From Terrimonas sp. (GTDB lineage: Bacteria; Bacteroidota; Bacteroidia; Chitinophagales; Chitinophagaceae): DNA of 64,000 nucleotides. Below are positions 19,602 through 40,626 of the stretch, in pieces; position 1 is the stretch's first letter; every line of letters starts with the position of its first letter. Under the pieces are notes generated by a model. That model was not told the DNA's origin. It saw only the letters and a program-made list of their open reading frames with translations, and searched no databases. The stretch covers positions 1 to 64,000 of the forward strand of contig NZ_QCZJ01000014.1 of the NCBI RefSeq assembly GCF_003075435.1, written 5' to 3'. The position numbers were made by a program, and so were the translations under genes.

Positions 19602-21446
19602 CTATTCAGCCGGTATTTCTGTTAAAGGCGGCACATTATTCTGGAAGCCGTCATAGCCTTCATTTTGATTAATTACACCTCCCACATTGCCATTAATTGT
19701 TCCCTGGGGAATTGGCCATAAAACATGGTATGGGCTTATAGTATACTTATCCCCGTGATTTGTTGTTACGCCTTTATTATAGAACTCCGTTTTTTCCATG
19801 ATCCTGTCATAGAAGAAATTATCCTTTGAAAAGTTTGCAAGTGTATATGTTTTTCCATTATAAGCAGCCTTGCCAGTGAGGGCAAATAAATATGCAATCC
19901 GCGTAAGCTCTACTTTTCTGGGCTCTTCATAATATAATTCTCTTGCACGCTCATCAAGAATAGTTCCGATATTAACGTCTGCGGCAGTTATAGGCTGGCA
20001 CCCTGCCCTTGTTCTTACTTTATTTAAATCAGCGGCAGCTAATTCATTTTCTCCCTTCCAGTAATATGCTTCTGCACGTAAAAGATAGGTTTCAGCAAGA
20101 CGAAATACGTACCAGTCTGTATGTCCGCCGCTTGGATTGGAGTTTTGGTTATCTGCGATAAAGAGCTTGTAATGTGGCCAATCAAACCAGCTACGGATAG
20201 TATCGGTACATAAAATCCCTCCATTGCTATTGTATTTCTGAAGATTTTTTCCATAGTATGGATCTGATTTGATGGTGTAATTATTATATAACAGATCCTC
20301 CATGCGCATCCAAACACCGGGTGCATGTCTCATATCTCCTGGATCGTCCCATATCGTATGCGTACTGTACCATGTGCCACGGCAACGGCCGATACCTCTT
20401 CCATACATATTAGCCTGATCCCAGTCAATAAGGGGCTGGTTCTTTTTTTGAGCGTCTGAGGTACCCTTATTGCCTGTCGGAGTATTGATATTAGAAAACC
20501 AGAAGGGAACTCCCTGCCTCATCGTGGAACCGCCTCCCGAAAAATCTCCATTATCAATATACCCATCCCTGTCTATTACCAGCATTAGTGCTTCTGTATT
20601 TGCGGCTACCGCTTTATTGAGCGGACGATGCAAATCCCATATCAGGTTTTTCGTAGCATCGTCTTTATCTGTTCCAAATCTTTGGGTCATCAGGGCATGT
20701 ACGCCATCGTCAATCACACGTGTAGCAGATGCAATGGCATCATCAAATTTTCCTAACGCCAAATTTACTTTAGTGAGCAGATGACTAACAGCGCCTTTCG
20801 AAACAGCCCCGCCATCTGCCTTTACCGGAACCCATTGCTCCGCAAATTCAAGATCTTCTTTTATTCTTTGCAGAATCACTTCCCGCTTAACCGTTGCATA
20901 ATCTACTTTTGGAGACGAAACTTCCTTCAATATCGCAGGAATATCTCCAAATTCATTGGTTAACATATAATATCTGTAAGCTCTGTGAAAATATGCTGCT
21001 CCAAGAACTGCATTCTTTTCTTCTTCTGATTTCCAGGCCGGCAGGTCAATATATGTTATTGCTGTATTAGCATACTTTATTCCTTTATAACCTTCGCTCC
21101 AATACCAACCAATTCTGTTATAGTCTGTACTATTCAGGTTTGCCGTAGGAGTAATCAAAAGGTTAAGATCCTGTGCTGGTCCTGACTTATCAGTAGTTCC
21201 TTCAACCGCTACTTCCGAAAAAATATTCTGGGTAATGATAGGGGCGCCATCACCAAACCATTCATACCTAAGATTCCGTTCACATGCAATCAATGAGCTT
21301 TTTAACCCTTCTACCGTGTTAAAGGTATTTTCAGGTGTGTAAAAGGATAAAGGCTCTGGCGTAAGAAAATCTTTTTTGCACGAGCCTGCAAAGCAAACTG
21401 ATAGAATCATCGCAGTGTTTAATGCAATTTTATCTAAAGTTCTCAT
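19602..21446 (-). CDS. SusD/RagB-family nutrient-binding lipoprotein
   Basis: Surface lipoprotein partner of the SusC channel. ATG 21446 gives a lipoprotein signal ending CFAGSC (Cys then K-K-D-F). SusD hallmarks are the start [16 protein letters not shown], the TPR-like helical core ([19 protein letters not shown]) and the C-terminal [20 protein letters not shown] with [15 protein letters not shown]. The length of 614 residues is at the long end for the family. It follows susC by 53 bp and ends the catabolic operon. It should bind the substrate imported by the TonB-dependent partner; the ligand is unknown, and no carbohydrase is encoded nearby. Confidence 0.93.
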
Positions 21447-21499
21447 TGTATAATATTTTAAAAATAATTTGAGATAATATTTCACATTCCCTTTATCGA

Positions 21500-24400
21500 T
21501 TAAAGGTTGAGGTTTATGCCCAGCGTATATATCCGTGGAGTAGGACCAGAATTTTCCGGATCCCAGAATGTCCACTGAGGAGCATAAAATCCAGCATTTT
21601 TAATGGTGAAATAAAATCTCAAATCCTGTAAATGAATACGACTGATCAGGCTTTGCGGTAAATTATAAGCTAAAGCAATATTATCAAGCCTTATTAAAGA
21701 TTTCTTTTTGTAAATGCTATAGCTTGCGCCTCCATCGCTTGAGAACAAACGTGCATAATCATTTATAGGATTTTCGGCTGTCCAGAATGGCAGCGCATAA
21801 GAATTTACGCGATCAGGAAATGCGTTGCTCCTGTTTTTTGCCTGGTTGTAGGTAGCGCTATGCCCCCAATAGGAATACATCAGGAATGAGAATGTGAAAT
21901 TTTTAAGAAAAGTAAATTCATTGCGCATTGTCCAGCGAAAACGCGGTTCGGTATAACCAAGATACATCCTGTCATCATCTGTATACTTTCCATCATCATT
22001 CACATCCACAATATGAAAATCTCCGGGCTGGACACCGTATATTGCAGCTTCATCTTTATCTGCTGTTTGCCAGATACCGATGGCTTTTTGATCCCAAATT
22101 ACATCAAGCGGCTGACCGATAAACCATTTGTTGGCCTTGTCATCCGGTTCTACCTGGCCAATTACATTTCCATTAGCATCCTTAACATCAACCTTAGTTC
22201 CATACAGGTGTACAATTTTATTTCTGTTCAATGAAAAGTTAATTGAAGTATTCCACTGAAAGTTTGGACGTTGAATATTCTTTGTATTCAGGGATATTTC
22301 TATACCCTTGTTATCAACTTGACCAAGATTATCCCAAACAATATCAAATCCACCTATTGGAGGAAGTGTGCGCTTAACAAGCAAATCATTGGTTTTGCTC
22401 TTATATACGTCTATGCTTCCGTCTATTCTGTTATTAGCTACAGAAAAATCCAAGCCGAGATTGAAAGCTGTTGTAGTTTCCCATTTCAACAATTTATTCT
22501 GCATATTATTAACATACAGTTGCGATACCTGGGATACTGTTCCATCCGATAAAATATGAAGATACTTGCCGGTTGCAAGATCTGCCAATGCTACATATCT
22601 TCCGATATCACGGTTACCGTTTAACCCGTAGCTCACCCTTAGTTTACCATAATTCAGCCAGCTTGCTTTACTCATAAAAGATTCATCGCTAAATACCCAA
22701 CCCAAAGCTGCTGAAGGAAAAGTTGCCCTCGGATTGCTTTGCCCGAAAGCAGAATAGCCATCGCGCCTTACGGTAAGCGTGAGCATATACCTGCTTTTGT
22801 AGGAATAAAATAATCTTGCCATAAGAGCGTCTGCTGTACTTACTTCATCCCCGGGCTTTGAATCATCCCCTTCGTCACTAAAAGTACAATAGTTACAAAC
22901 CGTAACATTAGTAGCTGCTCCCATATTGTGGTAGCTCAATACATCACTGGGTTGAAATCCTGTAGCTACCACTTTATTTCTCCATACCTGGAATTTTTCC
23001 GCATTTACAAGTCCTGTAAAATCCAAATGATGGTCTTTTCCAAAATCCCTGCCCCAGGTTAAGAGGTTATCAATTTGCCATTGATAGATATTCCTGTTTT
23101 CTCTTGTAGCTCTTCCTCCAAGATTTGTCCACGCCTGCCATAAAGCAGATTCACCGTTAAAATAGTTATACCATTCAAACCGGGGCGTAAAATTTGTTTG
23201 AAACTTTATGCCAAATGGCAGGGATAATTTTGCATATAAACTTGCATTCAGTTCATAATACTTTTTTAAGCGATTGGTGTACGTAGGAACACCGAAAGGA
23301 TTATTACCTCCACTTACTTCGTCATTGGGATTAAATCTTAATACTGTTGAATCATCATTATAATATGACCCCCAGGGAGAGTTTGCTGTAATAAGCGACC
23401 AATCCACCGGAATAGAACTTTCGTCTCTGATACTGAATTGAGTATTCATACCAACACTCAGGAAATTCGTAACTTTTGCATCTATATTCAAACGCGAACG
23501 CATTACATTATAATCATCTCCTTTGATAACTCCTTCGTTTTTCATATACCCTAACGACCAATAATAATTTATCCCTTCTTTTCTCCCCGATAAACTGATA
23601 TTATGATCCTGACGAATACCATTATGAAACATCATATCATACCAGTCAATGGATTGTCCTTTTTTATAGTTTTCAATTTCAACAGGCTGAAGGTTTAACC
23701 GTTGAAGCCATACCGTTACCGGATCAGCAGAAGCATTAGAATTATCATAAGCAAGCCAGTCGGTAACAGAAATATCAGAGGGTAAAGTGCGCGGGTCATC
23801 AAATTGGTAAGGTTTGGCATTTACGTTTGTACTGTACTTGACATTCCTTCTCCATGTATATAAGAACTCCTCCGCAGTATACACTCTTTCGTTAACACTC
23901 ATCGTAGCAACACCCACACTTGAGTTTACATTAATAGTAGGTTTGCCTGTCTTACCTCTTTTGGTAGTAATCTGAATTACACCACTTGCAGCCTTAGCAC
24001 CATATACCGCAGCAGAACTTGCATCTTTCAATACATCTACTGTTTCAATATCATTAGGATTAATGTCTGCCAATGCGCCATAATAAATAACGCCATCCAT
24101 TACAATCAATGGGCTTGATCCTGCATTCAACGTATTTTTCCCTCTTACCTGCAGACTGGCATCGCCCTTAGCAGAAGCATTGAATCCTACATTCAATCCT
24201 GGTACATTTGCTCTTAAAACATCCTGCACTGAAGCCGGATGCTCATTAACCAGTTGTGTTGCTTTAACAGAAGCAATAGCTCCTGTCAGATCTTTCTTTT
24301 TAGTAGTGCCATAACCAATTACCACTACCTGGTCAAGTGATGACGCATCATTTTCGAGCGATACATTAATATTGGTTTGATTACCAACCGTAATAGTTTG

Positions 24401-24655
24401 AGATTTAAAACCTACTGATGTAAATAAAAGTTTGGCAGTTTTTGCAACGTTATCAAGCTTAAATCTGCCCTGATCATCGGTAATGGCGCCATTTGTGGTG
24501 CCCTGTACTATTACAGATACGCCGGGTACTCCCTCCGGGCGTTCGGCAGATGTTACCCTGCCACTTACCGTAACATTTTGTGCGATTGCGTTTCCCCATA
24601 TACCTGCAAAAAAACATAGCAGCAGGAGAAATCTGTGAAGAGATTTTTTCATCAT
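21500..24655 (-). CDS. SusC/RagA-family TonB-linked outer-membrane importer
   Basis: A 1051-residue outer-membrane transporter. The signal peptide (ends NAIAQ) is followed by a carboxypeptidase-regulatory-like beta domain (about 28-105, [19 protein letters not shown]), the plug ([20 protein letters not shown], then [12 protein letters not shown]) and a long barrel ending in [12 protein letters not shown]. There is no N-terminal STN signalling domain, so it is unlikely to talk to an anti-sigma factor; regulation is more likely through the adjacent LacI protein. It pairs with the SusD lipoprotein for TonB-driven uptake of an oligosaccharide or other glycoside. Confidence 0.95.
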
Positions 24656-24703
24656 AATAGCAGCTTTTGTTAGTTAATAATGGTTTTGTTAAAAAAAATT
24701 AAT

Positions 24704-24842
24704 GAGCTGTGGGCTTTCAGCTTTCAGCCGTCAGCTTCCAGCTATCAGTATTCTGCAGCCGGTAATCAGCAGTTAGCCGACTCAAGTGAATTTTGTGCTT
24801 TAAATCGCTCACAGCCGAAAGCTCATAGCTGATTGCTGACCG
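24704..24842. repeat. AGCTG-type repeat cluster between SDR and susC
   Basis: The gap upstream of susC is packed with short words GGCTTTCAGC, GCCGTCAGC, CCAGCTATCAG, then CTCACAGCCGAAAGCTC and AGCTGATTGCTGAC. The two ends form an imperfect inverted repeat. It is the longest member of the dispersed AGCTGATAGCTGA family in this window. It lies inside an operon and could shape differential expression of susC. Confidence 0.55.
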
Positions 24843-25601
24843 CTAAAATCCAATAGCGTTGCCTCCGTCAACGGGTAATACAATTCCTGTTATATAATTG
24901 GCGGCATCACCCGCAAGAAATGCCGCGGCATAGCCTATATCATCAGGTTTTCCAAGCTTAGCCATAGGTGTGCGTGATAACACTTTTTGTTTTCTATCGG
25001 GATCGCTGTTTAATGCTTTTGAAGACATATCTGTTTCAATAAAACCCGGAGCTATACAATTCACCCTTATGCCCAGCGGTGATAATTCTACTGCCATCGC
25101 TCTTGTCATGCCTTCTATAGCTGATTTAGATGCGGTATATGCAATCACTTTCGGAATGCCATACTGCGATGCCATTGAGCTTATAAGCAGTATCACACCG
25201 TTTTTTCTTTGCACCATTCTTTTCGCAAATTCCCTGCTGAGAGAAAATACTGCCGACTGGTTGGTTTTTATAACAGATTCGAAATCTTCATCAGTTACCT
25301 CAAGTATATCTTTTTTCATATTAATGCCGGCATTGTTTACCAGCACATCAATATGCCCATGCTTATTTATTACTGCTTCAACAAACAATGGAATAGCTTT
25401 TATATCTGTTAAATCAAACACATGGTATGCGCAGGATGTTCCTATATTTCCACATGCTTCTTTTAGCTGTAGCTCATTTCTCCCTGTAATAATTACTTTG
25501 GCGCCATGATGTGCCATAGTGTTAGCAATAGCAAATCCCAACCCTTTGCCACCACCGGTTATCAATACCTTTTTACCTGTTAAATCAAATTTGTTGTGCA
25601 T
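24843..25601 (-). CDS. Short-chain dehydrogenase/reductase (SDR)
   Basis: A 252-residue classical SDR. The cofactor site is ITGGGKGLG (residues 15-22), the structural motif NNAG is at 89-92, and the catalytic set is Ser141/142, Tyr155 and Lys159 in YTASK. It ends IVLPVDGGNAIGF, like gluconate 5-dehydrogenase or 2-deoxy-D-gluconate/3-ketoacyl reductase-type enzymes. Its place in the SusCD operon points to a sugar or sugar-acid oxidoreductase rather than fatty-acid synthesis. Confidence 0.85.
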   Translation of the reverse strand: MHNKFDLTGKKVLITGGGKGLGFAIANTMAHHGAKVIITGRNELQLKEACGNIGTSCAYHVFDLTDIKAIPLFVEAVINKHGHIDVLVNNAGINMKKDILEVTDEDFESVIKTNQSAVFSLSREFAKRMVQRKNGVILLISSMASQYGIPKVIAYTASKSAIEGMTRAMAVELSPLGIRVNCIAPGFIETDMSSKALNSDPDRKQKVLSRTPMAKLGKPDDIGYAAAFLAGDAANYITGIVLPVDGGNAIGF

Positions 25602-25615
25602 TTGTATTTTTTTAT

Positions 25616-25654
25616 AGCTATTGGCTGTCAGCTATCAGCTGACAGCCAATAGCT
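25616..25654. repeat. Perfect 18-bp hairpin between two operon genes
   Basis: AGCTATTGGCTGTCAGCT (25616-25633) and AGCTGACAGCCAATAGCT (25637-25654) are perfect inverted copies around ATC. The arm at the right starts at the last base of the oxidoreductase stop codon. There is no U-run on the minus strand, so an mRNA stability or processing role, or a REP-like mobile remnant, is more likely than simple termination. It belongs to the AGCTG repeat family. Confidence 0.75.
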
Positions 25655-27048
25655 CACTTCCCTTTGCTCATTGCTATCTCTAATGCCTTTGTGGTTGTGT
25701 AGTATTTCGCCAACATACCGGGTACTTCCCATTCCGGTAATTTTTTTTCTTTTAGATATTGAAGGTACCGTTCCATTACCTGTCCAAAATGCGCTTCATG
25801 CCCCACATTATACTTAGCAGGTATAATAACTTTCCATTCCTTGGTATTTATTTTTTCAACGCTCACACCGGGATATTTTGTGCTGATGGTTGCAATAGAT
25901 TGTGTAATGACACTATCTGCATCTTTACCATTGGCAGGAATAATGTAGAGCACGGGTTTAAAATTTTCTTCCTTACCCTGCCTTATTTCAAGTGTAGATT
26001 TTGTTCCTTTCACTATTGCATGATGTGAGTCGCCACCCGCTTCAGCTTTATAATCCCACCGAGCTATAATTTTTACAGGTATACCTTTTATGGTATAATT
26101 CATTTCGCCGTTGGCATGTGTTTGCAGGATAGAATCTTTTTCAATTAAAGGTTTCAGGTAATCAGGATACTCATTTTTACCAGTTATGCTGGCAAACTGT
26201 GTTGGCGTAAGTGGCGTTGGCCATATGCTTGCTGAAGTAATATTGATATCCTTGCTATAATCAAGGGATACCTCCGGAAGGCATTGCCATTGTACCAGGT
26301 CAACAAGGTGCGTTGCCACATCAGCAATAGCATCTCCCTGTTGAGCAGGGTCAAAAAACCATAAAGGACGAACCAGCGGCTTGCCTGAAACGTTCTTGAA
26401 AAAATAATGGATGCTCTCAATAAATACGGATGGATCTTTTTCGGAACCCTTTTTTATTTCACCAAACAGCACCGGGTCATGCATTAATTCTTTTTGAATA
26501 ATATTAGTGATCTCCGACCTTTCAGTCATAATATCATACAGCAATACATTGTTTTTCTTAGCTGCATCAAACGCTTCAACCAGTTTGGTAAAATTATCGG
26601 TATTAATAGCCATGGGCTTATCACCCAAAACATTCAACCCTGCATCAACCGAACGTTTGATATAATCTGTTTTCAGCCGGTTATTGCCTGCCAGCACTAC
26701 CACATTGCCTTTCTTTTCAGCAAGCATTTTCTCTGCAAAATCAGCACCTTTATATACCACTTCATTCCAATGTGTTGGGTTTTCATCCCTGGTATTATAT
26801 TGATTGATCAGGCTCAGATGCGCATCAACCTCTGCTCCTTCCGGCGCATATACATACACGGTAGTATCAATATCCGGGTAGCTTGTTTTCTGCACCAGTG
26901 CCGCGTGAAAATGGCCGGGGTCAAGTGTTAAAAGCCTTACCATACTGCTATCATTTTTTTCACTATCTGCTTTTGTTTCAGATGGCGACTGGCATCCGAA
27001 AGCTGCTGTTAAAGCCACAAGAATAATTATTGTAATACGTTTCATCAT
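25654..27048 (-). CDS. Gfo/Idh/MocA-type lipoprotein oxidoreductase
   Basis: A 464-residue NAD(P)-dependent-type oxidoreductase carried on a lipoprotein (LVALTAAFGC lipobox). The opening RLLTLDPGHFHAALVQKTSY and the putative oxidoreductase C-terminal domain are characteristic of a Bacteroidota/Planctomycetes subfamily. A degenerate E-K-P motif appears as GDKPMAIN (Asp for Glu). Being exported, it may hold its cofactor tightly, as glucose-fructose oxidoreductase does. It lies just before the SDR gene and 38 bp after a second Gfo/Idh gene, suggesting sequential oxidation of an imported glycoside. Confidence 0.8.
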   Translation of the reverse strand: MMKRITIIILVALTAAFGCQSPSETKADSEKNDSSMVRLLTLDPGHFHAALVQKTSYPDIDTTVYVYAPEGAEVDAHLSLINQYNTRDENPTHWNEVVYKGADFAEKMLAEKKGNVVVLAGNNRLKTDYIKRSVDAGLNVLGDKPMAINTDNFTKLVEAFDAAKKNNVLLYDIMTERSEITNIIQKELMHDPVLFGEIKKGSEKDPSVFIESIHYFFKNVSGKPLVRPLWFFDPAQQGDAIADVATHLVDLVQWQCLPEVSLDYSKDINITSASIWPTPLTPTQFASITGKNEYPDYLKPLIEKDSILQTHANGEMNYTIKGIPVKIIARWDYKAEAGGDSHHAIVKGTKSTLEIRQGKEENFKPVLYIIPANGKDADSVITQSIATISTKYPGVSVEKINTKEWKVIIPAKYNVGHEAHFGQVMERYLQYLKEKKLPEWEVPGMLAKYYTTTKALEIAMSKGK

Positions 27049-27086
27049 GTTACCAATCTCAAATTTTAAATCTCAAATGTCAATTC

Positions 27087-28511
27087 TTACATTGTTGTTT
27101 TTACATTAAATCCTTTATCAATCTGGTAGGGCCATCTTTCTGAACGCTTCAGCATGAAGTTAGCCTCGTCATCATTTTTAAACCTTTCCAATACAGGATC
27201 CCAATATAATTTTCGTTTAAGCTGCATGGTAATATTATTCAGCAGACAAACAGAGCAGGCTCTGTGCCCTGCTTCTATCGGCGCGATATTGGGCTCTCCT
27301 GTGATGATGGCATTAAGCCAGTTGGCATGATGCTCCTTGCTGTCAATCAAATGAATTTCGTTGGGACCTATTACAGAATCAAGTATCTTAGGATTGCTGG
27401 CATCAAGCGCTTTGCTGTTATTGCCTTTTTTTATAGGATCGCTGGCGGTTACAGAATAATTTCCCCTTGTTACAAAAATCCAGCCTTCATCGCCGACAAA
27501 TTTTACTCCATTCGGATATTCATTGCTTGCCAGCACTTTTACACCATTGGCAAATATTGTTTCTGTTTTAAAATTACCATGCACATCCCACAGCGCCTTT
27601 TCATCCGGCCAATCCGCAGTGCCCGAAAGTTCTATCGGGCCGGTATCTTCCGTGCCCATACCCCAGTTGGCAATATCAAAGTGGTGCGATCCCCACCCGG
27701 TGATCATACCTGCTCCAAATTGTTCGCAACGCAGCCAGCCGGGTCTTGAAAAATCATTTTGTGGATGCACTAATTTTTCTGTGTAGGAAACATAAGGCGT
27801 TGCTCCAAGCCATTTTTCAAAATTGAGATTTGAAGGAATGGGCATTTCTTTTTCAGGCGTACTTTCTTTAGGGTTATCAACCGGCAGCCCAACATATATC
27901 GTATGCAATTTTCCTACTCGCCCGTTTCTTACCAGTTCGCATGCTTTTTTAAATTGCGGCATAGAGCGTTGCTGGCTTCCTACCTGGAACACAACGCCTG
28001 CACGATGCACTTCGTCGCTTAATCTTCTTCCCTCACTGATGCACAAGGAAGCAGGTTTTTCCATGTATATATGTTTTCCGGCACGTGCAGCGGTTATAGC
28101 AGGGAGTACATGCCAGTGGTCTGGTGTAGCAATGATCACCGCATCAATATCTTTGTCAGCAATCAGTTCTTCATAATGTTCGTACGTTTTGGTGCTGTTG
28201 TAACCAGATTGACCTTTGCCGGCATAGTAATCATCAATAAACTTTTTACCCAGTTGTAATCTTTTGCTGTCAAGATCACATACGGCCAATACCCTTGAAG
28301 TTTCCTGCTTCATGGTGCCGGGTATATCCCAGTCGCGTGCAATTCTGCCGGCGCCTATAGCTCCAACATTGATGCGGTTAGATGGCGCGTATTTTCCCAG
28401 CACTGATGCAGGAACAATTGTTGGAATGTTGGCAAGCATTGCTGCTCCTGCAGTTCCTTTCAACGTGTTTTTTAAAAAATTCCTGCGGGATGAATTTGTT
28501 TTTTTGCTCAT
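27087..28511 (-). CDS. Tat-exported Gfo/Idh/MocA oxidoreductase
   Basis: A 474-residue oxidoreductase. ATG 28511 gives a twin-arginine signal (SSRRNFLKNTLKGTAGAAM), so it is probably exported folded with cofactor. The Rossmann start is INVGAIGAGRIARDW, the catalytic-side motif MEKPASL has the canonical E-K-P lysine, and ATPDHWHVLPAI is typical of the family. The length and the signature GWGSHHFDIANWGMG are those of periplasmic Bacteroidota Gfo/Idh proteins. Neighbours are ThuA-like and a second Gfo/Idh protein. Confidence 0.85.
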   Translation of the reverse strand: MSKKTNSSRRNFLKNTLKGTAGAAMLANIPTIVPASVLGKYAPSNRINVGAIGAGRIARDWDIPGTMKQETSRVLAVCDLDSKRLQLGKKFIDDYYAGKGQSGYNSTKTYEHYEELIADKDIDAVIIATPDHWHVLPAITAARAGKHIYMEKPASLCISEGRRLSDEVHRAGVVFQVGSQQRSMPQFKKACELVRNGRVGKLHTIYVGLPVDNPKESTPEKEMPIPSNLNFEKWLGATPYVSYTEKLVHPQNDFSRPGWLRCEQFGAGMITGWGSHHFDIANWGMGTEDTGPIELSGTADWPDEKALWDVHGNFKTETIFANGVKVLASNEYPNGVKFVGDEGWIFVTRGNYSVTASDPIKKGNNSKALDASNPKILDSVIGPNEIHLIDSKEHHANWLNAIITGEPNIAPIEAGHRACSVCLLNNITMQLKRKLYWDPVLERFKNDDEANFMLKRSERWPYQIDKGFNVKTTM

Positions 28512-28573
28512 GATTATGTTTTTTCTATTATGGCAATCGTTTATAAGTTTTACTGTCAATCCAGTTATTATGT

Positions 28574-28642
28574 GAGAAGTGAAACATCAGGTGTAAGATC
28601 TAAAAGCTCATCTCGCTTTAGACGTCTCCTATATCACTTCTC
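28574..28642. repeat. Inverted repeat in the ThuA/Gfo-Idh gap
   Basis: GAGAAGTGA (28574-28582) and TCACTTCTC (28634-28642) are perfect inverted copies. The neighbouring GTGAAACAT and GTTTCACAT extend the symmetry loosely. It may be a processing hairpin or a repeat of the GGTG/AAGTG-rich class. Confidence 0.45.
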
Positions 28643-28657
28643 AGGTTTCACATAGCA

Positions 28658-29503
28658 TCAGTACGGTAAAGGGTCATCCGGGCTTTTGGCTCTTGCTTTA
28701 CTATAATCAAGCGGTTTGTTCTTTCCTATCACCCATATTATTCCACCCAATATATGCTTTTGAAATTCAGGTTCTGCGTAAGTTGCGCTGTCATGCCCCA
28801 GGGATGTATACCATTGTCTTCCACCATCAAATTCATGACACCATACGGATGGAGAAGAAGTTCCTCCGTAGTAAGCTGGCTTATCTTTATCATCAAGCGG
28901 AGGAAGATCATGCACGATCAGCACATGAATATCCGGGTTGTATTCTTTAAAAAAATAACACTCATCGTCCCGCTGCCATATTTTAGGCAGAAAAGAAGTA
29001 GAAGGATGCGTATCATCAATAATAATTTCTTTGAAAGGCTGGTGTTTTGCATGGCGTAAGAAAGACGCGCCTATCAATCTTTTAAACCAGGGCCACTGGC
29101 GCTCAGACCCTGTGGCAGAGTGTATGCCTACAAAACCTCCTCCTGCCTGCACATAACGCATGAAAGCTACTTTTTGCTCATCGGTATCAAAGGTTTCGTT
29201 GTTGGTATTATTGAAAATAACCAGGGTATATTTTTTCAGGTTGTCTTCCGTCATACTTGCCGCATCATCGGATACGTCTACTTTAAAACCCTGCTGTTTT
29301 CCTATTTCTTGTATAGCGGCTGTGCAGGCAGCCCTGTTGTCGTGTATATAACCTTTCCCATTTTTAGTATATACCAGCACACTGATATTTTTCCATTTTA
29401 CTTTATACTCCTGCACAGATTTTTTCTGAGCACCTGCTGATGTAAAATAAAAAAACAGCATAATGCTCAGTATCACTTTTGTAATGTTCATCATTCTTTT
29501 CAT
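28658..29503 (-). CDS. ThuA-domain protein, secreted
   Basis: A 281-residue protein with a signal peptide (ends SAGAQ) and a glutamine-amidotransferase-like ThuA fold. Visible motifs are VLVYTKNGKGYIHDNRA, LVIFNNTNNETFD, and GGGFVGIHSATG followed by W-P-W-F-K-R-L-I-G-A. ThuA takes part with the Gfo/Idh protein ThuB in trehalose use through 3-ketotrehalose in rhizobia. Here it sits upstream of two Gfo/Idh genes in a SusCD operon, so a keto-sugar route is a reasonable inference. Confidence 0.88.
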   Translation of the reverse strand: MKRMMNITKVILSIMLFFYFTSAGAQKKSVQEYKVKWKNISVLVYTKNGKGYIHDNRAACTAAIQEIGKQQGFKVDVSDDAASMTEDNLKKYTLVIFNNTNNETFDTDEQKVAFMRYVQAGGGFVGIHSATGSERQWPWFKRLIGASFLRHAKHQPFKEIIIDDTHPSTSFLPKIWQRDDECYFFKEYNPDIHVLIVHDLPPLDDKDKPAYYGGTSSPSVWCHEFDGGRQWYTSLGHDSATYAEPEFQKHILGGIIWVIGKNKPLDYSKARAKSPDDPLPY

Positions 29504-29513
29504 ACTTAATATA

Positions 29514-30764
29514 TTATTTTTCCAGGCGTTCTATTTTTATTTCAGGAGGCGTAGCAAAACTTTTCCATGCATCTTCAGCCTGCTGTGTTGTTATACTATC
29601 TTCATATACCAGCATCCGGTATTTCAAAATATAATTATTACCGGGGTAAAGCGGCCAATCTTTATTTCTGGTAGGGCTGAAACTGAAAAACACATCGCCG
29701 CGTTTATTAGCATCCACCGGCCATACCCGCATAGGTTCCGGGAAGTTATAATTGGTGGGATAACCCATAAATAAAATGCCGGAATGCCCTTTCTCCATAT
29801 CGCCGTCTATCATACACCATCGTGCGGTTGATGCATCAGCAGCTTTACGGTCTTTGCCTTCTGAAGTAAGTACTTTACTGTTGCTGTTGTTCCAGTCTTC
29901 ACTTGCCCTGAAACCAAAGCCGCCATAGCGGTACTCTTTCAGTATTACAGCGCTGTCTGTAGCACAATTTAAGGAAGATGAGAAATCAATAAGCCACATT
30001 TTTTCTGCAATATTATATACACGCACATCCCATACTTCATTCATAGCAACTGTTTCTGCTCCCGGAGATGGTATATTAAATGCCACGTGTTGCTGCAATG
30101 CCCTGAATCCCGTGTACACATTACCGTTATAAGTATCAATAATATTACTGAATCTCACCGTTCCTTTTTTGTCACCAATATTCCAGAAATCTACTTCTTT
30201 ACCCTGGAACAGAACATGCGTCCACGGATTCCAGATGCCCATATGATGATAATGATCAGGCGCATTGATGCGTGTAAGTATATTACCCGATGGCGACCAC
30301 AACGGATGTATGAAGCCACTTCTCTTAAATGCAGTATCAATGCCCTTTGGCGGATAATGCGTGGCATAATTGTATTGTATAACCCTGCTGGCGCCGGATG
30401 TAATTAAGACATTGCCATCTTTTGAGGAAATATTGAGCGGTTGCTTTTGCTGGAGTTCCCTGCTATTGCTGTTGCACAATTCAAAAACTCTTTTATGTTT
30501 GTCGCCAGGTTTTATTATCCACCATAAAAAACGCTGTTGTCCGTTTTCAACCTGGAAAGGAATATTGACAAAATCTTTGCCCACAACTTCTCTTAGATAG
30601 AATGCGGAATCATGCAGCGTAGTAATATTATAAAGGGGAATATAAACAGGCGTACTGATGCTGTTGGTAACATTGAGCGTAAACCGCGCAATTACCTGCG
30701 CGCCTGCAGATGACAGCAGGCAAAACAAAAGCAATATAGTTCCGGAAAGGGTCTTTTTTCTCAT
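29514..30764 (-). CDS. DUF6807 (PmoA-like annotated) secreted protein
   Basis: A 416-residue exported protein (signal ends SSAGAQ), first gene of the operon. Family marks are HPLWSPSGNILTR, DHYHHMGIWNPWTHVLF and KEVDFWNIG, with histidine clusters suggestive of a metal or sugar site. Databases often call the family PmoA, a name with no functional weight for methane oxidation. It is commonly found with Gfo/Idh and ThuA proteins. The function is unknown; a role in binding or hydrolysing an oxidised glycoside is inference. Confidence 0.8.
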   Translation of the reverse strand: MRKKTLSGTILLLFCLLSSAGAQVIARFTLNVTNSISTPVYIPLYNITTLHDSAFYLREVVGKDFVNIPFQVENGQQRFLWWIIKPGDKHKRVFELCNSNSRELQQKQPLNISSKDGNVLITSGASRVIQYNYATHYPPKGIDTAFKRSGFIHPLWSPSGNILTRINAPDHYHHMGIWNPWTHVLFQGKEVDFWNIGDKKGTVRFSNIIDTYNGNVYTGFRALQQHVAFNIPSPGAETVAMNEVWDVRVYNIAEKMWLIDFSSSLNCATDSAVILKEYRYGGFGFRASEDWNNSNSKVLTSEGKDRKAADASTARWCMIDGDMEKGHSGILFMGYPTNYNFPEPMRVWPVDANKRGDVFFSFSPTRNKDWPLYPGNNYILKYRMLVYEDSITTQQAEDAWKSFATPPEIKIERLEK

Positions 30765-30790
30765 ATGTCGGTTCTGCGCAATCAGTTAAG

Positions 30791-30822
30791 TAAAAATAGG
30801 GAGATAGGATATCCTATCCAAA
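30791..30822 (-). promoter_or_regulatory. Promoter of the SusCD catabolic operon
   Basis: On the minus strand TTTG (30822-30819), a 20-bp spacer and TATTTTTA (30798-30791) fit the Bacteroidota -33/-7 pattern well. The DUF6807 start codon lies 27 bp further. The spacer is almost filled by a perfect palindrome (see next entry). Confidence 0.65.
30803..30818. promoter_or_regulatory. 16-bp palindrome inside the promoter spacer, candidate operator
   Basis: GATAGGATATCCTATC is a perfect palindrome located between the -33 and -7 boxes, where a bound repressor would block RNA polymerase. It lacks the central CG of most LacI-family sites, so the binding protein is uncertain. Confidence 0.5.
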
Positions 30823-30855
30823 GCCGCTCTCAGCATAAATTACAGCGCCTTTTTT

Positions 30856-30879
30856 GCACTCGTTACCGGCAACGTTTGC
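30856..30879. promoter_or_regulatory. LacI/GntR-like operator candidate
   Basis: The core CGTTACCGGCAACG (30861-30874) closely resembles known GntR-type LacI-family operators (GTTACCGGTAAC). The symmetry extends to GCA...TGC, giving a 24-bp site with three mismatched pairs and a central CG. It lies between the divergent LacI gene and the operon promoter, so it may serve autoregulation or looping. Confidence 0.55.
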
Positions 30880-30942
30880 ATTAAATATTCTTCATGTAAT
30901 TGATGTATAATTTCGAAAAGATTTATTCTCTTTAAAAAATTA

Positions 30943-30970
30943 TTGCTTAAAATGTAAAACCTTACCTTTA
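30943..30970 (+). promoter_or_regulatory. Putative promoter of the lacI-family gene
   Basis: TTG (30943-30945) and TACCTTTA (30963-30970) form a plausible -33/-7 pair, with the ATG 6 bp after the -7 box. The leader would be very short or absent, which is possible but makes the call uncertain. Confidence 0.35.
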
Positions 30971-30976
30971 TTTTTC

Positions 30977-31996
30977 ATGCAGAATGTTACCATTAAAGAT
31001 ATAGCCAAACGATTGGGCATATCGGCGTCTACCGTATCAAGAGCGCTGAGAGGAAGCACCGAAATAAATGAGGAAACAAAAAGGCTGGTGCAGGAACTTG
31101 CAAAAGAATTAAACTACACACCTAATCCCATCGCTTTATCGCTTAAGGAAAAAAAGACAAAAGTAATTGGCGTAATTGTGCCTGAGATAGCTAATTATTT
31201 TTGTTCTGCAGTAATTGCGGGCATTGAAGATTTTGCTTATAACAAAGGTTACCACGTAGTTATTTTTCAAAGTCATGAAAAATATCAACGTGAACTGATG
31301 AATATAAAATTACTTGAATCAAGAAGAATAGACGGTTTGATCATATCTGTTTCTAACGAAACTAAAAACGGGAATCACATACAGGAGTTGATTGACAAAG
31401 GAATACCTGTGGTAATGTTTGACAGGATTTGTAATGAAGTAGATACCCCGCGGGTGGTAACCGATGACAAAGGAGGCGCTTACATGGCAACCCGTCATTT
31501 GATTGAGCAGGGATATACCAGGATAGCGCACATGACCATGAGCCCGCAACTATCTGTTACCAAAAACAGAACAAATGGCTATACTGAGGCATTGAAGGAA
31601 TACAATATTCCATATCAGAAAAAATGGGTAGTTGCCTGTGATTTTGATATTAAACATATTAAAAGTTCAATACACAAATTGTTTAAATCAACACCCAAAC
31701 CTAATGCTATCCTGGCATCGGCTGAACGCATTGCTATAAGAAGCATTGAAGTATTGAAAGAAATGAAACTGCGCATACCCGCGGATGTAGCCGTAGCCGG
31801 TTTTTTTGATAACCCCATCAGCCGGTTTATTGACCCTCCGCTTACCTCCATTCATCAGCCAACTTTTGATATAGGCCAATCTGCAGCAAGATTACTAATT
31901 GAAATGATTGAGGGAAATACGCTGCAGCACCAGTTTAAAACAATTGAGCTGAAAACAACTATAGAGATCAGGGAATCTTCGATGCGGAAGAAGTGA
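30977..31996 (+). CDS. LacI-family transcriptional regulator
   Basis: A 339-residue repressor or activator. The N-terminal helix-turn-helix is textbook (TIKDIAKRLGISASTVSRAL) followed by the hinge region NYTPNPIALSLKEKKT. The periplasmic-binding-protein-like core begins VIGVIVPEIANYF and carries VMFDRICNEVDTPRVVTDD and VAVAGFFDNPISRFIDPPLT. It is divergent from the SusCD catabolic operon and presumably responds to the imported sugar or a product. Such coupling of LacI to an operon led by exported oxidoreductases is typical of Bacteroidota sugar loci. Confidence 0.92.
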   Translation: MQNVTIKDIAKRLGISASTVSRALRGSTEINEETKRLVQELAKELNYTPNPIALSLKEKKTKVIGVIVPEIANYFCSAVIAGIEDFAYNKGYHVVIFQSHEKYQRELMNIKLLESRRIDGLIISVSNETKNGNHIQELIDKGIPVVMFDRICNEVDTPRVVTDDKGGAYMATRHLIEQGYTRIAHMTMSPQLSVTKNRTNGYTEALKEYNIPYQKKWVVACDFDIKHIKSSIHKLFKSTPKPNAILASAERIAIRSIEVLKEMKLRIPADVAVAGFFDNPISRFIDPPLTSIHQPTFDIGQSAARLLIEMIEGNTLQHQFKTIELKTTIEIRESSMRKK

Positions 31997-32027
31997 AATA
32001 GCTGATAGCTGTCAGGTATCAGCTATT
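31997..32027. terminator. Shared hairpin between convergent genes
   Basis: AATAGCTGATA (31997-32007) pairs perfectly with TATCAGCTATT (32017-32027) over 11 bp. It follows the lacI-family stop codon directly and contains the acpS stop codon. It is a member of the AGCTGATAGCTGA repeat family, so here the repeat may act as a bidirectional terminator. Confidence 0.6.
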
Positions 32028-32402
32028 AGCTATTGCAATCATCACCACCGCGATTGCAACGTTGTCCGTATGCGAAAGTGAAACATGTATATCGGCGGCA
32101 TTGAATTGTTTAAGTGAAACCGCTGTTTCACCGAGTAAACGAACATGTGGTTTGCCAGAAGTTTCATTATATATTTCTATCTCACTAAAAGATGTGCCTT
32201 CTGCCCAGCCTGTGCCAATTGCTTTAAAGAATGCTTCTTTCGCCGCGAATCTTGCCGCATAATGTTCAAACTTTTTTGCTTTTGATTCGCAATAGCTGAT
32301 CTCATGCGCAGAAAAAACCAGTTCCCTGAATCCTTTTTCTTTATTGATAGATGCAGCAATGCGCTCTATCTCCACTATATCTATGCCTACGCCGCTAATC
32401 AT
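32019..32402 (-). CDS. acpS: Holo-ACP synthase (4'-phosphopantetheinyl transferase)
   Basis: Transfers phosphopantetheine from CoA to the serine of acyl carrier proteins. The 127-residue length is standard. The two signature segments are GVGIDIVEIERI (metal-binding Asp) and FAAKEAFFKAIGTGW (Glu and Lys of the active site). It is the last gene of the minus arm of the pigment cluster and overlaps the C45-type gene by 8 bp. It therefore probably activates the ACP encoded at 48.8 kb, and may also be the cell's general AcpS. Confidence 0.92.
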   Translation of the reverse strand: MISGVGIDIVEIERIAASINKEKGFRELVFSAHEISYCESKAKKFEHYAARFAAKEAFFKAIGTGWAEGTSFSEIEIYNETSGKPHVRLLGETAVSLKQFNAADIHVSLSHTDNVAIAVVMIAIANS

Positions 32403-34071
32403 GACTTTTAGTTTGCTTTTGTGATGCAGTTATCTGCTGCTGAATATATTCTTCTTCGTTCTTTGTGGCTATTTCTTTGGTAAGCGCCTGTTTATAATAT
32501 TCAATTGCTTTAGCAAAATCTTTATGTTTAAAACTATAATCTCCGGCAATAACATAAGCATGATAAAATTCCGGATTACTGGCAATCACGCTGTCAGTAT
32601 TCACTTCCAACCCTTCACTTATCATATGCTTGTATCGCCTGAAATTTTCAAACTGCCTGTATTGCGGGCTGTATAAAAAGCTATCAGCGGGAATGGTTAA
32701 AACGCTGTCACATATTTCCTGGTTTTCTTTGAGCCCGTGCAAAGCAAAAATTTTATGAAGGTTATATGCCTTAAACTCGCCCAGCTGCCAGGGAGATGTA
32801 GATACCCAAACCAATAACTTCTTTGGCTCAAAAATAATAGCGTGATGTGCTATCAACTGGTTCATGGCTTTTTCATTCCCCATGCCGATATCTTCATTAT
32901 GCAAACCATTCCTGTCTCTTAAAATTGCCGCGGTTTTCAAAACGGTATTTGCGCCTTTTTCATGCAGCAATTCTTCCAGTCTTTTATAGCGATAGGGAGA
33001 AGCACTTTTATCAAGCTGCTCTATATTGGGTTCAGAAGCAATAAGCCCTTTACTCTGGAAATGATTAGAACAAAGAATGCGGTCTGACTGAGGGTCGTAT
33101 ACATCCAGCGTATCCGGGGTCTTTTCAATGATCACCGCTTTATTATCAGCAGCAGAACCAACCAGGAAGGATTCTGATACAAACATTTTTCGTTTACCCG
33201 CTATCGTTACTGCCTCTTTTATATCAGATGCATATTGCAATATTTCTCTCGCTACCAGCGAAACAGGTGTTGCAGAACCAGAGGGTATACCGCTTTTGGC
33301 AGCATTTATGGTAACGGTTAGTCCTTTTTCATTCATGCCTGAAACAACGCCGATAAAACCACCCCAGGTAACGCTCATAAATTTGTAACCTTCAGCAGGA
33401 TTTTCAAAAGCTATTATCTTGTTTTTTGCAAAATCATCGCCCACATAAAAATCAAAATTCCTGCCAATGATCAATTGGCTATCTGCAGATGCAGCATTCC
33501 ATGTGCCGAAGGATGTGCAGCCTACCAATGCCATATTCTGCAATGCATGCCCTATATCATGCGCTGCATGATAATTCAGAATACGCTGGTAATTGGTGCC
33601 GATATAATCATATTGATCAGACGCTGATTCGGAGACGCCATATATCTCCTCCTTATATTCTTCTGTTATATTTTTATCGAGGTTACGGTTAAACCAGCCT
33701 ATCACATATTTTAAAAAATGCAGGTAAGATTTTGAAGGGATCATCTTATTGATCTGCGCGTTAAAATAATCTTCCTGCAAAACAACCAGTTCTTTTGAAA
33801 GCTTACCATTTACCACACCACGCTCAAATGGCTTGCCTTCCACGTACATTTCATATAAACCGGAATTGCTTTTACGGAACCAGTTATTACCAAGCGTATA
33901 AAAATTATTCCCGTGGTCTTCCCGCTCCCGTTGCAGACCTGATTTATCTGCTATTGCAGGCGGATCAATATCACTCACATATACCACGTAAGCAAACAGC
34001 AACAGCAATATTGCTATAATGGAGATAGCAATATACAGTAGCCATTTGCCTGCTTTTTTCAATCTATGCAT
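32395..34071 (-). CDS. C45-type autoproteolytic acyltransferase/hydrolase
   Basis: A 558-residue Ntn-hydrolase-type protein. An N-terminal membrane anchor (LLYIAISIIAILLLLFAYVV) precedes the domain. Cys185 in ALVGCTSFGTW is the likely nucleophile released by cleavage after Gly184, as in acyl-CoA:6-aminopenicillanate acyltransferase. IIGRNFDFYVGDD and GVVSGMNEKGLTVTINAAK are family blocks. The C-terminal part holds a TPR-like helical pair (YHAYVIAGDYSFKHKDFAKA). In flexirubin/aryl-polyene clusters such a protein may release or esterify the acyl chain; this role is inferred from context. Confidence 0.75.
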   Translation of the reverse strand: MHRLKKAGKWLLYIAISIIAILLLLFAYVVYVSDIDPPAIADKSGLQREREDHGNNFYTLGNNWFRKSNSGLYEMYVEGKPFERGVVNGKLSKELVVLQEDYFNAQINKMIPSKSYLHFLKYVIGWFNRNLDKNITEEYKEEIYGVSESASDQYDYIGTNYQRILNYHAAHDIGHALQNMALVGCTSFGTWNAASADSQLIIGRNFDFYVGDDFAKNKIIAFENPAEGYKFMSVTWGGFIGVVSGMNEKGLTVTINAAKSGIPSGSATPVSLVAREILQYASDIKEAVTIAGKRKMFVSESFLVGSAADNKAVIIEKTPDTLDVYDPQSDRILCSNHFQSKGLIASEPNIEQLDKSASPYRYKRLEELLHEKGANTVLKTAAILRDRNGLHNEDIGMGNEKAMNQLIAHHAIIFEPKKLLVWVSTSPWQLGEFKAYNLHKIFALHGLKENQEICDSVLTIPADSFLYSPQYRQFENFRRYKHMISEGLEVNTDSVIASNPEFYHAYVIAGDYSFKHKDFAKAIEYYKQALTKEIATKNEEEYIQQQITASQKQTKSHD

Positions 34072-35581
34072 TTCTTATTTTTTCTACTATAGCTTCATTG
34101 CCTAAAATAGTAATGCTTGTAAGCAATGCGCTGATGGTTGAGCCAAGCACACCATGTATATTAATATTCTGACCGGTAAGGTAAAGATTCTGCACCTTTG
34201 TACGGGGCGAAATAAATGTCTTTAACGGGTCTTTATAATCTTTGGCTATACCATATAATGATCCGTCATAATTACCGATATAATCCCGGTAAGACAAAGG
34301 CGTGGAAGTAGTATACGATTGAATACAGTTTCTCAATCCAGGGAATCTCTCTTCTACAAGATCAAGCAAAATTTCCGCCTTATATTTTTTGAACGCTTCA
34401 TAGTTTTCTCCCCTGCTGTTTTCATTTGACACAGTATTGAATGTATCATGCCAGGGCGCCACCTCTTCATAACGCATAAAGGCAAAAATAGTCAGCGCTT
34501 CACCATATTCATCATTTTCAGAAGCCGGCGGCACAAACATGGCATAAGACAGCGGCCAATTATCTTCCGTATAATCTGTAAGATTCCATATCTCTCCTTC
34601 CTTATGATAATAATAGTTATGCTTTATATAGGGAAAACAGTTTTTCTTTAAAGCGATATGCACAAGAAAAGATGAAATGGTATGCGGCAGGCTGCTCAAT
34701 CTTTTGCGATAAATATTTTTGATGATCGGCGTTTCTGTCATCTCCATTGTTTTTGCCGGGTGAATATTGGAGATGAATATATCGCCATAAATTTTCCTGC
34801 CATCCGCAGCCTCCACATATATTACCTTATCCTCCTGCACCTGTATTTTTTTTACTTCAAAATGACGGATGATCTCTCCTCCCATTTCACGGATATTCTT
34901 TGCCAGTATTTTCCCAATTTGCGATCCGCCGTTAATGCATTTCCACGAGCTTTCAATATAACTGTTAAGAATAAGCGCATGTATATAAAAAGGCGTTTCA
35001 TCAGGTCGTCCTACATATAATCCATTATTACCAACCAGCACAGCCTGCAATTTCAGGTTATCAGTTATCTCTTCAATAACAGTACGCGTATCTTCCCTCA
35101 TCGCGTCTGCCTTTTCTTCAAACAAACCGTGGGTGCGCAATTTATACAGCGGGAATTTATCACAGGTTTCCTTCACTTTATCACAGTATGCTCTTATTGC
35201 CGTTTCTTCCTCAGGAAAATAAACCAGCAATTGCCGAACAAAATTTTCATAGCCTTGTGCCAGTTTATATTCGTACTTATCTCCGCTTATAATAATACGG
35301 TCAAAACCATCTTCATCCATCCGCTGTATTTTCAGCTTATCCATTACACCCAGGTACTTAAAAACCTGGTAAAGGTTTTGTCCTTTATCAAGCCCGCCTA
35401 TATAATGCACGCCTGAATCAAAAACCACTTTATCCCGTGCAAAGGTTTGAAGGCTGCCTCCTATTTGCTTATTCTTTTCCAGTACGCAAACGCAATAGCC
35501 TTCTTTTGCAAGCAAAGCGGCAGATACCAAACCACCTATACCGCTTCCTGTAATTACTATATCATATTTATCTGCCTGCAT
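34064..35581 (-). CDS. CrtI/phytoene-desaturase-like FAD oxidoreductase
   Basis: A 505-residue FAD enzyme of the phytoene desaturase/all-trans-retinol saturase group. The dinucleotide motif is ITGSGIGGLVSAALLAKEG, followed by VCVLEKNKQIGGSLQTF, and the C-terminal motif is NLYLTGQNINIHGVLGS. It may act on the polyene chain or on another lipid of the pathway. It overlaps the upstream fusion gene by one base and the downstream C45 gene by 8 bp, so it is co-translated with both. Confidence 0.8.
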   Translation of the reverse strand: MQADKYDIVITGSGIGGLVSAALLAKEGYCVCVLEKNKQIGGSLQTFARDKVVFDSGVHYIGGLDKGQNLYQVFKYLGVMDKLKIQRMDEDGFDRIIISGDKYEYKLAQGYENFVRQLLVYFPEEETAIRAYCDKVKETCDKFPLYKLRTHGLFEEKADAMREDTRTVIEEITDNLKLQAVLVGNNGLYVGRPDETPFYIHALILNSYIESSWKCINGGSQIGKILAKNIREMGGEIIRHFEVKKIQVQEDKVIYVEAADGRKIYGDIFISNIHPAKTMEMTETPIIKNIYRKRLSSLPHTISSFLVHIALKKNCFPYIKHNYYYHKEGEIWNLTDYTEDNWPLSYAMFVPPASENDEYGEALTIFAFMRYEEVAPWHDTFNTVSNENSRGENYEAFKKYKAEILLDLVEERFPGLRNCIQSYTTSTPLSYRDYIGNYDGSLYGIAKDYKDPLKTFISPRTKVQNLYLTGQNINIHGVLGSTISALLTSITILGNEAIVEKIRNA

Positions 35582-39420: not shown

Positions 39421-39429
39421 GGGTTGATG

Positions 39430-40626
39430 TTAAACTACGGTACTCGCCTTTTTCTTAAACACACTCAGCAGTATCCATGTAATTACACCGCCTGCAACAG
39501 CTGCCGCAACAGCCAGGGTAATGCTTCCATATATATATTGCTGAAAATTATTTTTTACAGAATCGAAACTCAGATCGCGGGTAAACAATAGATCTCCGCT
39601 ACCGTTAGCCATCCAAATAGCGCCGGTTTTATAACTTAAAAAAACAATCAGCGGTATCATTGGCGGAATACTGATATTGGCCGCGATTATAACAAGCGCC
39701 TTATTCAACCGCAATACTATGGCAAGAAAAATGGCAGTTACCAACTGGAATCCCCAGATAGGCACAATACCCATAAATACACCCAGTGCCACTGACAATG
39801 CTTTTATATGATCCGGTTCATTTACATTAATAAGATGATCGCGGACAAATGCTTCACGGCTCTCTCTTTTAAACAAAGAGCGGAAAAAATTTCGCGGCTT
39901 TATATATAAGAAAGCAATCAGCACAAGTATGGTATTCAACACACCAATCCTGAAAAAATCTTTAAACGGCCTGAAATGCGTGATCCTTTCGCCTGCAGGC
40001 GCATAATATACCGATATGGGAACAGGGGTTATTTCCAGCCCTTTCCATGCTGCTCTTACCAGCACTTCAATTTCAAACTCATACTTGGTGGTAAAAAAGC
40101 GGGTATGCTTAAAATGTTGTACAGGATATAAGCGATAGCCCGATTGTGTATCAGGCATGTTAATACCTGTTTCTATTTTAAACCAAAAATTAGAAAACTT
40201 ATTACCGAAAGTATTTTTACCCGGCATGTTTTCCTGGTTAAGATTTCTTGAGCCGATTATTATCCCGCCAGGAGATGTTTTCAGCTTTTCAATAAATACA
40301 GGAATGTCCTTAGCGAAATGCTGACCATCTGAATCAATAGTAATAGCATAATCAAAGCCCAGCGCTATCGCTTTTTCAAAACCTTTACGCAGCGCCCAAC
40401 CTTTACCAACATTTTTTGAATAGCCAATATATGTTATAAATGAGAATGATGAAACAACAGTTTCCGTATTATCGGAAGAGCCATCATTTACAACAATGAT
40501 ATTTTTTGTATACCCGGCTACATCTGCAATAACAGCAGGCAGTGTACCTGCATTATTATAGGTTGGAATAATAACGCACAATTGCCGGTCATTGAATGTT
40601 TCCCTTAGAATATCGTTCTCGTTCAT
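39430..40626 (-). CDS. Glycosyltransferase GT2 fused to DUF2062
   Basis: A 398-residue inner-membrane protein. The N-terminal GT2 domain has CVIIPTYNNAGTLP, IIVVNDGSSDNT and the metal-binding TIDSDGQHF. About residues 235-390 form a DUF2062 membrane domain (LSVALGVFMGIVPIWGFQ and ANISIPPMIPLIVFLSYK). It begins the minus arm of the pigment cluster, 9 bp from the fusion gene. It may glycosylate or attach a head group to the lipid product, as DUF2062 proteins often do; the acceptor is unknown. Confidence 0.82.
   Translation of the reverse strand: MNENDILRETFNDRQLCVIIPTYNNAGTLPAVIADVAGYTKNIIVVNDGSSDNTETVVSSFSFITYIGYSKNVGKGWALRKGFEKAIALGFDYAITIDSDGQHFAKDIPVFIEKLKTSPGGIIIGSRNLNQENMPGKNTFGNKFSNFWFKIETGINMPDTQSGYRLYPVQHFKHTRFFTTKYEFEIEVLVRAAWKGLEITPVPISVYYAPAGERITHFRPFKDFFRIGVLNTILVLIAFLYIKPRNFFRSLFKRESREAFVRDHLINVNEPDHIKALSVALGVFMGIVPIWGFQLVTAIFLAIVLRLNKALVIIAANISIPPMIPLIVFLSYKTGAIWMANGSGDLLFTRDLSFDSVKNNFQQYIYGSITLAVAAAVAGGVITWILLSVFKKKASTVV

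Follow-up and report, generated by a model that had tools for sequence, protein, structure and literature searches.

A SusCD locus of Terrimonas sp. without a glycoside hydrolase and the probable link of its conserved module to glucuronate use

How might a bacterium live on a glycoside through a locus that encodes uptake proteins and oxidoreductases and no recognisable enzyme for cleaving it? The question is raised by positions 19602–31996 of a 64,000-nucleotide stretch of Terrimonas sp. DNA (contig NZ_QCZJ01000014.1, positions 1 to 64,000; the window in what follows), where a SusC/SusD pair lies with Gfo/Idh oxidoreductase genes, a ThuA-domain gene and a gene for a DUF6807 protein. A first-pass annotation had proposed that the cell opens imported glycosides in general by oxidation to a 3-keto form followed by elimination. 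The gene neighbours in related genomes instead indicate glucuronate and glucuronoxylan and, more weakly, a methyl group. Our favoured explanation, to which we assign a probability of about 45%, is that this LacI-controlled, SusCD-fed locus, which encodes no glycoside hydrolase itself, serves the use of substrates bearing glucuronic acid, with 4-O-methyl-glucuronate, or oligosaccharides that carry it, from glucuronoxylan as the likeliest candidates. Glucuronate is probably the substrate class; that 4-O-methyl-glucuronate is the substrate itself falls somewhat short of an even chance. The glucuronate linkage, a repeated exchange between ThuA and DUF6807 proteins, a single operator-like site and a lyase-like predicted fold are new relative to that annotation.

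Seven minus-strand genes, in the order DUF6807, ThuA, Tat-exported Gfo/Idh (Tat-Gfo below), lipoprotein Gfo/Idh (lipoprotein Gfo), short-chain dehydrogenase/reductase (SDR), SusC and SusD, lie opposite a LacI gene on the plus strand, and open reading frames (ORFs), Pfam and NCBIfam bore out the coordinates and families originally assigned:

30977..31996, plus strand, divergent LacI-family regulator (PF00356/PF00532)
30861..30874, no strand assigned, probable LacI-type operator CGTTACCGGCAACG in the LacI-DUF6807 divergent intergenic region
29514..30764, minus strand, DUF6807 protein of 416 amino acids (aa), candidate lyase (PF14100, 219 bits, cut-off 27)
28658..29503, minus strand, ThuA-domain protein of 281 aa (PF06283, 222 bits, cut-off 33.4)
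27087..28559, minus strand, Tat Gfo/Idh oxidoreductase (PF01408, 63 bits, and PF19051)
25654..27048, minus strand, lipoprotein Gfo/Idh-fold protein (PF16490, 395 bits)
24843..25601, minus strand, SDR oxidoreductase (PF13561; SDR, 207 bits)
21500..24655, minus strand, SusC/RagA outer-membrane transporter (TIGR04056, 727 bits, cut-off 368)
19602..21575, minus strand, SusD-like protein (PF07980/PF14322; SusD, 165 bits)

SusC and SusD are adjacent and are confirmed as a pair by TIGR04056 and the SusD domains. Reading of the sequence places the SusD start more likely at 21446, the GTG ORF overlapping SusC, and the Tat-Gfo start more likely at 28511. Pfam found no glycosidase, lyase or esterase family in the eight locus proteins and no sugar hydrolase, lyase or esterase in ten flanking proteins (12017–40626, leaving out AcpS at 32019–32402), nine of which match families of other functions and one none. 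The initial impression that no such enzyme is recognisable thus stands for all 18 proteins scanned, and the locus differs from a polysaccharide utilisation locus in that no CAZyme degradation family lies beside SusCD.

The grouping of these genes is not due to chance, because the same cluster recurs in relatives. DUF6807 relatives occur in 21 of 147 genomes of the family (E up to 1e-40) and 8 of 148 of the phylum (E up to 1e-20), the Terrimonas genome being included in both; up to 20 kb was taken around each of 29 DUF6807 places and around the best 80 of at least 288 loci encoding a DUF6807 relative. The 29 places and the 80 loci overlap, and the genome sample (G) and the loci (L) share at least seven members (G153=L065, G207=L066, G198=L067, G161=L070, G200=L084, G228=L122 and G223=L140), which means that figures per genome and figures per locus are not independent. 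The core seen in the window recurs in Bacteroidota relatives as DUF6807, either ThuA or a second DUF6807 protein, Tat-Gfo and lipoprotein Gfo. In the 48 of these 80 loci that extend 6 kb or more to both sides, Tat-Gfo is present in 40, lipoprotein Gfo in 28 and both in 26, and the gene adjoining DUF6807 encodes ThuA in 17, a second DUF6807 protein in 11 and Tat-Gfo in 10.

Across the 80 loci, ThuA alone is found in 26, a second DUF6807 protein (DUF6807b) alone in 22, both in one and neither in 31, the last class being slightly overcounted because L081 has a further DUF6807 protein (390 aa) outside the DUF6807b cluster; the two thus nearly exclude each other (Fisher p=2e-4). A DUF6807 tree of 79 rows, scored for three states, requires 23 changes; among them L105, with ThuA, falls inside a group of loci that have a second DUF6807 protein, and a ThuA locus pairs, with weak support, with a DUF6807b locus (L142/L114). 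From this near-exclusion and repeated exchange, the second DUF6807 protein would seem to perform the same step as ThuA. In a distant relative DUF6807 and ThuA form a single protein of 746 aa (L056:8914-11154), which suggests that the two act together. Two other proteins keep company with the module: a DUF2264 protein (684 aa; L100:13938-15992 and relatives) lies near it in six loci, and a two-cupin protein of ~261 aa (e.g. L044:13630-14442), which at a guess might open unsaturated uronates, lies beside it in 11 loci, some being the same place twice.

The neighbours of this module point to glucuronate. Neighbour families were named by Pfam and NCBIfam and then counted by single-sequence phmmer with chosen thresholds, which gave, in the 80 loci, UxuA in 15, D-mannonate oxidoreductase in 9 (one at only 25 bits), xylose isomerase in 5, xylulokinase in 6, GH3 in 9, GH67 in 4, GH10 in 4 (the GH10 domain of L130, seen by Pfam, is missing from the count), GH115 in 3 (one partial) and CE15 in 3. 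Curated profiles confirm examples of UxuA (518, 482 and 486 bits, cut-off 199.6) and D-mannonate oxidoreductase (373 and 343 bits, cut-off 281). At these frequencies we reject a glycoside hydrolase as the conserved core in relatives, an alternative that the first-pass annotation had itself raised; such genes are sometimes neighbours only. As a control we used 40 of 69 places with higher-scoring genes of the family of BT2158, described as a periplasmic glycoside 3-dehydrogenase (PMC11300592), from the same phylum, three of them from the Terrimonas genome, and raised the D-mannonate oxidoreductase threshold to 250 bits on both sides, which drops L107 (25 bits). Among loci of at least 15 kb, UxuA or D-mannonate oxidoreductase was found in 16 of 55 versus none of the 40 controls (p=6e-5), and any glucuronate or xylan gene in 23 of 55 versus one of 40 (p=7e-6), the controls having a different mix of taxa. 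GH67/GH115 alone (4/55 vs 0/40, p=0.14) and xylan-side genes alone (8/55 vs 1/40, p=0.07) were not significant.

Whole genomes of the family show the same tendency. UxuA is present in all 21 genomes with DUF6807 (the G158 match being a fragment) versus 77 of 126 without (p=1e-4), GH67 in 13 versus 36 (p=0.005) and GH115 in 12 versus 37 (p=0.02). UxaC was found in all 19 of the 21 that were searched, and we therefore reject the module as a replacement for UxaC; likewise, GH67 or GH115 is present in 15 of the 21, which rejects it as a constant replacement for alpha-glucuronidase. The Terrimonas genome, in which our search found neither GH67 nor GH115, is one of the remaining six, two of which are less than 80% complete. 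It has UxaC, and its UxuA shares a contig with the locus at a distance of ~46 kb, with no glucuronate neighbour among six other proteins scanned there.

The glucuronate link holds within the window's own hydrolase-free clade. Parafilimonas terrae (L065; G153) carries, after SusC-SusD, a PF01261 TIM-barrel protein, UxaC as the second gene after SusD, a DUF7133-cytochrome c protein after UxaC (L149:10742-13048), another Gfo/Idh protein and an MFS carrier. UxuA lies downstream of SusD on the contig of the module in G223, and 12 kb from DUF6807 in G198 (Pfam 427 bits), after a 343-aa ORF. Among further relatives, UxuA adjoins an SDR of the same type as that of the window in two Pedobacter loci (L085, L089), and in the xylan loci of G172, G228 and G245 DUF6807 lies 9–14 kb from a GH115+GH67 pair.

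The intergenic region between the divergent LacI and DUF6807 genes is conserved in the nearest relatives and contains CGTTACCGGCAACG. In 7/7 genomes that hold the module, CGTTNCCGGNAACG is present at one site and no more, which in five of them is between LacI and DUF6807; in G198 it lies between ThuA and the divergent 343-aa ORF, which is outside the family scan, and in G265 on a different contig from the module. A reversed-pattern control gave one site in two of the seven genomes and none in five. A divergent LacI gene with a conserved palindromic site has the form of a LacI-regulated operon, and since each genome has a lone conserved site of this kind, LacI is likely a local, dedicated repressor of the locus.

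What might the DUF6807 protein contribute? It matches PF14100 only in Pfam, and its profile finds no real sequence relative among solved structures (no PDB match at E up to 1). Its predicted model (pLDDT 94) has as best whole-length fold match the uronate lyase PL26 (5xqg), with other supersandwich proteins close behind; the match spans both DUF6807 domains (333 versus 234 residues), at 8% identity and to a target about twice as long. Because of this match the earlier suggestion that DUF6807 could be an unrecognised lyase gains weight, at the level of a predicted model. The family has other members in the Terrimonas genome: a further DUF6807 gene (355 aa) adjoins a Gfo/Idh gene (L054; G000:C26), ~5 kb from a DUF6786 (PF20583) gene, and a 1264-aa protein combines DUF6807, DUF7133, HEAT and cytochrome c (L055:6888-10682; G000:C1).

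The hint of a methyl group comes from a UroD-superfamily gene directly upstream of DUF6807 in 23 of the 80 loci, in 21 within 200 bp (14/55 loci of at least 15 kb vs 0/40 controls, p=2e-4). The loci come mostly from Prolixibacteraceae and other Bacteroidales, plus a Planctomycetota metagenome-assembled genome and one further genome bin, hosts that are presumably anaerobes; in two of them (L134:5994-8888, L139:5777-8698) a glycine cleavage P-protein lies directly upstream of the UroD-DUF6807 pair. The UroD superfamily's corrinoid enzymes are described as including O-demethylases (PMC10418091, PMC13222342), and three scanned UroD genes score best in NCBIfam with MtaA/CmuA (63, 71 and 88 bits, cut-off 235), above HemE (55–62). 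One-carbon genes are found in three loci, too few for a statistic: L092 has a corrinoid protein (MtgC-like, 183 bits, cut-off 370), a methyl-tetrahydrofolate:corrinoid methyltransferase (239 bits, cut-off 259), methylene-tetrahydrofolate reductase and a B12-activation domain; in L081 the latter two occur beside GH115, GH10, GH3, XylA and XylB; and in L119 a corrinoid protein accompanies UroD. Of the genomes that carry 22 of the 23 UroD loci and eight xylan-type loci, 30 in all, 28 have an ORF of corrinoid-protein size (215–257 aa) with B12-binding_2, a count made by eye and with no background rate. UxuA, GH67, GH115, CE15 and methyl transfer would all be in keeping with a 4-O-methyl-glucuronate substrate. 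The profile of all 23 UroD sequences, however, matches HemE structures only, and one-carbon genes are not significantly enriched (2/55 vs 0/40, p=0.5). Relatives of the one-carbon-linked subclade were found in six of 395 genomes, three of them already known (the Terrimonas genome, G167 and G178), and no UroD-type methyltransferase or corrinoid protein was found among the window proteins scanned, the rest of that genome not being searched.

The export signals would place part of the chemistry outside the cytoplasm. Of those first proposed, the Tat and lipoprotein signals are invariant in relatives, and the Sec-like N-termini of DUF6807 and ThuA were judged by eye only; the SDR has no visible signal peptide. 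In Tat-Gfo the twin-arginine motif SRRNFLK has R25 and R26 unchanged in 29/29 aligned rows, as are G69, G71, K168 and P169, and the best PDB matches are 8tdf and 8tdh. Lipoprotein Gfo (PDB match 4oo3) retains its lipobox Cys19 in 26/26 rows, likewise H46, H48, K144 and P145; DPGHFHA stands at the expected dinucleotide-binding GxGxxG site, and the usual mode of NAD binding may be absent. ThuA has H54, H128, H151, D180, E181, D199 and H237 invariant in 26 rows.

We propose that SusCD would import the acid sugar, and that Tat-Gfo, presumably with its own cofactor, would oxidise a ring hydroxyl, at C3 by analogy with BT2158 and possibly equilibrating to C2. DUF6807 and ThuA, or the second DUF6807 protein, would then carry out elimination and hydration steps that release an aglycone, expel the 4-O-methyl group as methanol, or both. 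Lipoprotein Gfo would act as a second keto-sugar enzyme, the SDR would reduce the keto-acid, and UxuA, encoded elsewhere in the genome, would yield 2-keto-3-deoxygluconate. The oxidation and elimination mechanism as first annotated is partly supported: it agrees with the hydrolase-free locus, with the conserved core of oxidoreductases, ThuA and DUF6807, and with the BT_2158 family as best match of Tat-Gfo, but none of our results gives a 3-keto product. In its boldest and rather doubtful form, DUF6807 would be a new uronate lyase expelling methanol from (oxidised) 4-O-methyl-glucuronate, and the DUF6807/ThuA/Gfo module would be a bacterial route for taking the methyl group off the uronic acid in hardwood xylan; on this reading presumed anaerobes would instead catch the methyl group with UroD/corrinoid enzymes.

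One rival is a general 3-keto-glycoside pathway, in which Tat-Gfo would oxidise C3 of varied glycosides, ThuA and DUF6807 would eliminate the aglycone and the glucuronate link would be incidental. The best NCBIfam match of Tat-Gfo is indeed the BT_2158 glycoside 3-dehydrogenase, and at E up to 1e-30 its profile matches the 8tdf dehydrogenase alone in the PDB. We nevertheless consider this pathway unlikely: Tat-Gfo reaches only 125.3 bits against that family (NF058561, cut-off 750) and so falls outside it, five closer BT2158-like genes (291–506 bits) lie elsewhere in the same genome, the 40 BT2158-like control loci lack any UxuA or UroD linkage, and no DUF1080 (PF06439) lyase of the BT2156-2160 type is found in the eight locus and ten flanking proteins, the rest of the genome not being searched. 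A module for unmethylated glucuronate or aldobiouronate, acting on glucuronides from xylan or gums with no methyl chemistry and with the relatives' UroD in some other role, would account well for the strongest linkage being to UxuA, UxaC and D-mannonate oxidoreductase and for the non-significant one-carbon genes. It leaves UroD and the one-carbon genes unexplained, however, and the exported oxidoreductases seem superfluous for free glucuronate because UxaC and UxuA are already in the genomes searched; we rate it as unlikely.

Two further explanations concern single proteins. DUF6807 could be a mere mutarotase-like accessory that interconverts anomers or epimers while ThuA and the Gfo proteins do the chemistry, but the extent of the PL26 match over both domains, the many invariant polar residues in the alignment and the substitution of a second DUF6807 protein for ThuA make this improbable. 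GH109 and GH188 belong to the Gfo/Idh superfamily, and Tat-Gfo, with its Gfo/Idh domains and Tat motif, could itself be an NAD-dependent glycosidase of that sort, the locus thus holding a hydrolase after all. No GH109 entry is named among 60 of its 74 PDB matches, which is not proof, and the lyase-like partners would be unneeded, so that we regard this as highly improbable. If the glucuronate reading is true, DUF6807 and exported ThuA proteins gain a substrate and a chemistry, and the removal of the 4-O-methyl group in xylan breakdown becomes directly testable. In the open-licence literature we found DUF6807 mentioned solely to show how far the numbering had come by one Pfam release (PMC10971088), and no report of bacterial removal of the glucuronate 4-O-methyl group.

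Beyond the LacI gene, positions 32019–40626 of the window hold an AcpS-like ORF (by eye), an AAT-type acyltransferase, an FAD amine-oxidase-like protein, a 1279-aa MMPL-acyltransferase-methyltransferase protein and GT2-DUF2062, a set suggestive of lipid or pigment biosynthesis.

How does the locus compare with known systems? ThuA has a role with 3-keto sugars, and thuAB is a rhizobial trehalose/3-keto operon. That operon and the Terrimonas locus both have ThuA adjoining a Gfo/Idh oxidoreductase; the Terrimonas locus differs in its exported proteins, SusCD uptake and DUF6807, and Pfam names no other trehalose family among its eight proteins. With the 3-keto-glycoside pathway of B. thetaiotaomicron (BT2156-BT2160) it shares an exported Gfo/Idh dehydrogenase, but it has DUF6807, ThuA and PF16490 instead, and its relatives are linked to UxuA. 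Corrinoid O-demethylases (MtvB/OdmB/VdmB/MtoB) belong to the same superfamily as the UroD gene beside the module in relatives, whereas the window locus has none. AtOGE and PuCGE, described as Mn-dependent 3-keto-glycoside beta-eliminases (PMC10628242), resemble the system in the proposed chemistry, elimination after C3 oxidation; the window locus has no PF01261 protein, whereas Parafilimonas terrae has one after SusD. To the exo-rhamnogalacturonan lyase PL26 the likeness is one of fold in the DUF6807 model only. Glucuronoxylan loci with GH67, GH115 or CE15, finally, contain relatives of the same module, which in the window stands without a CAZyme degradation family.

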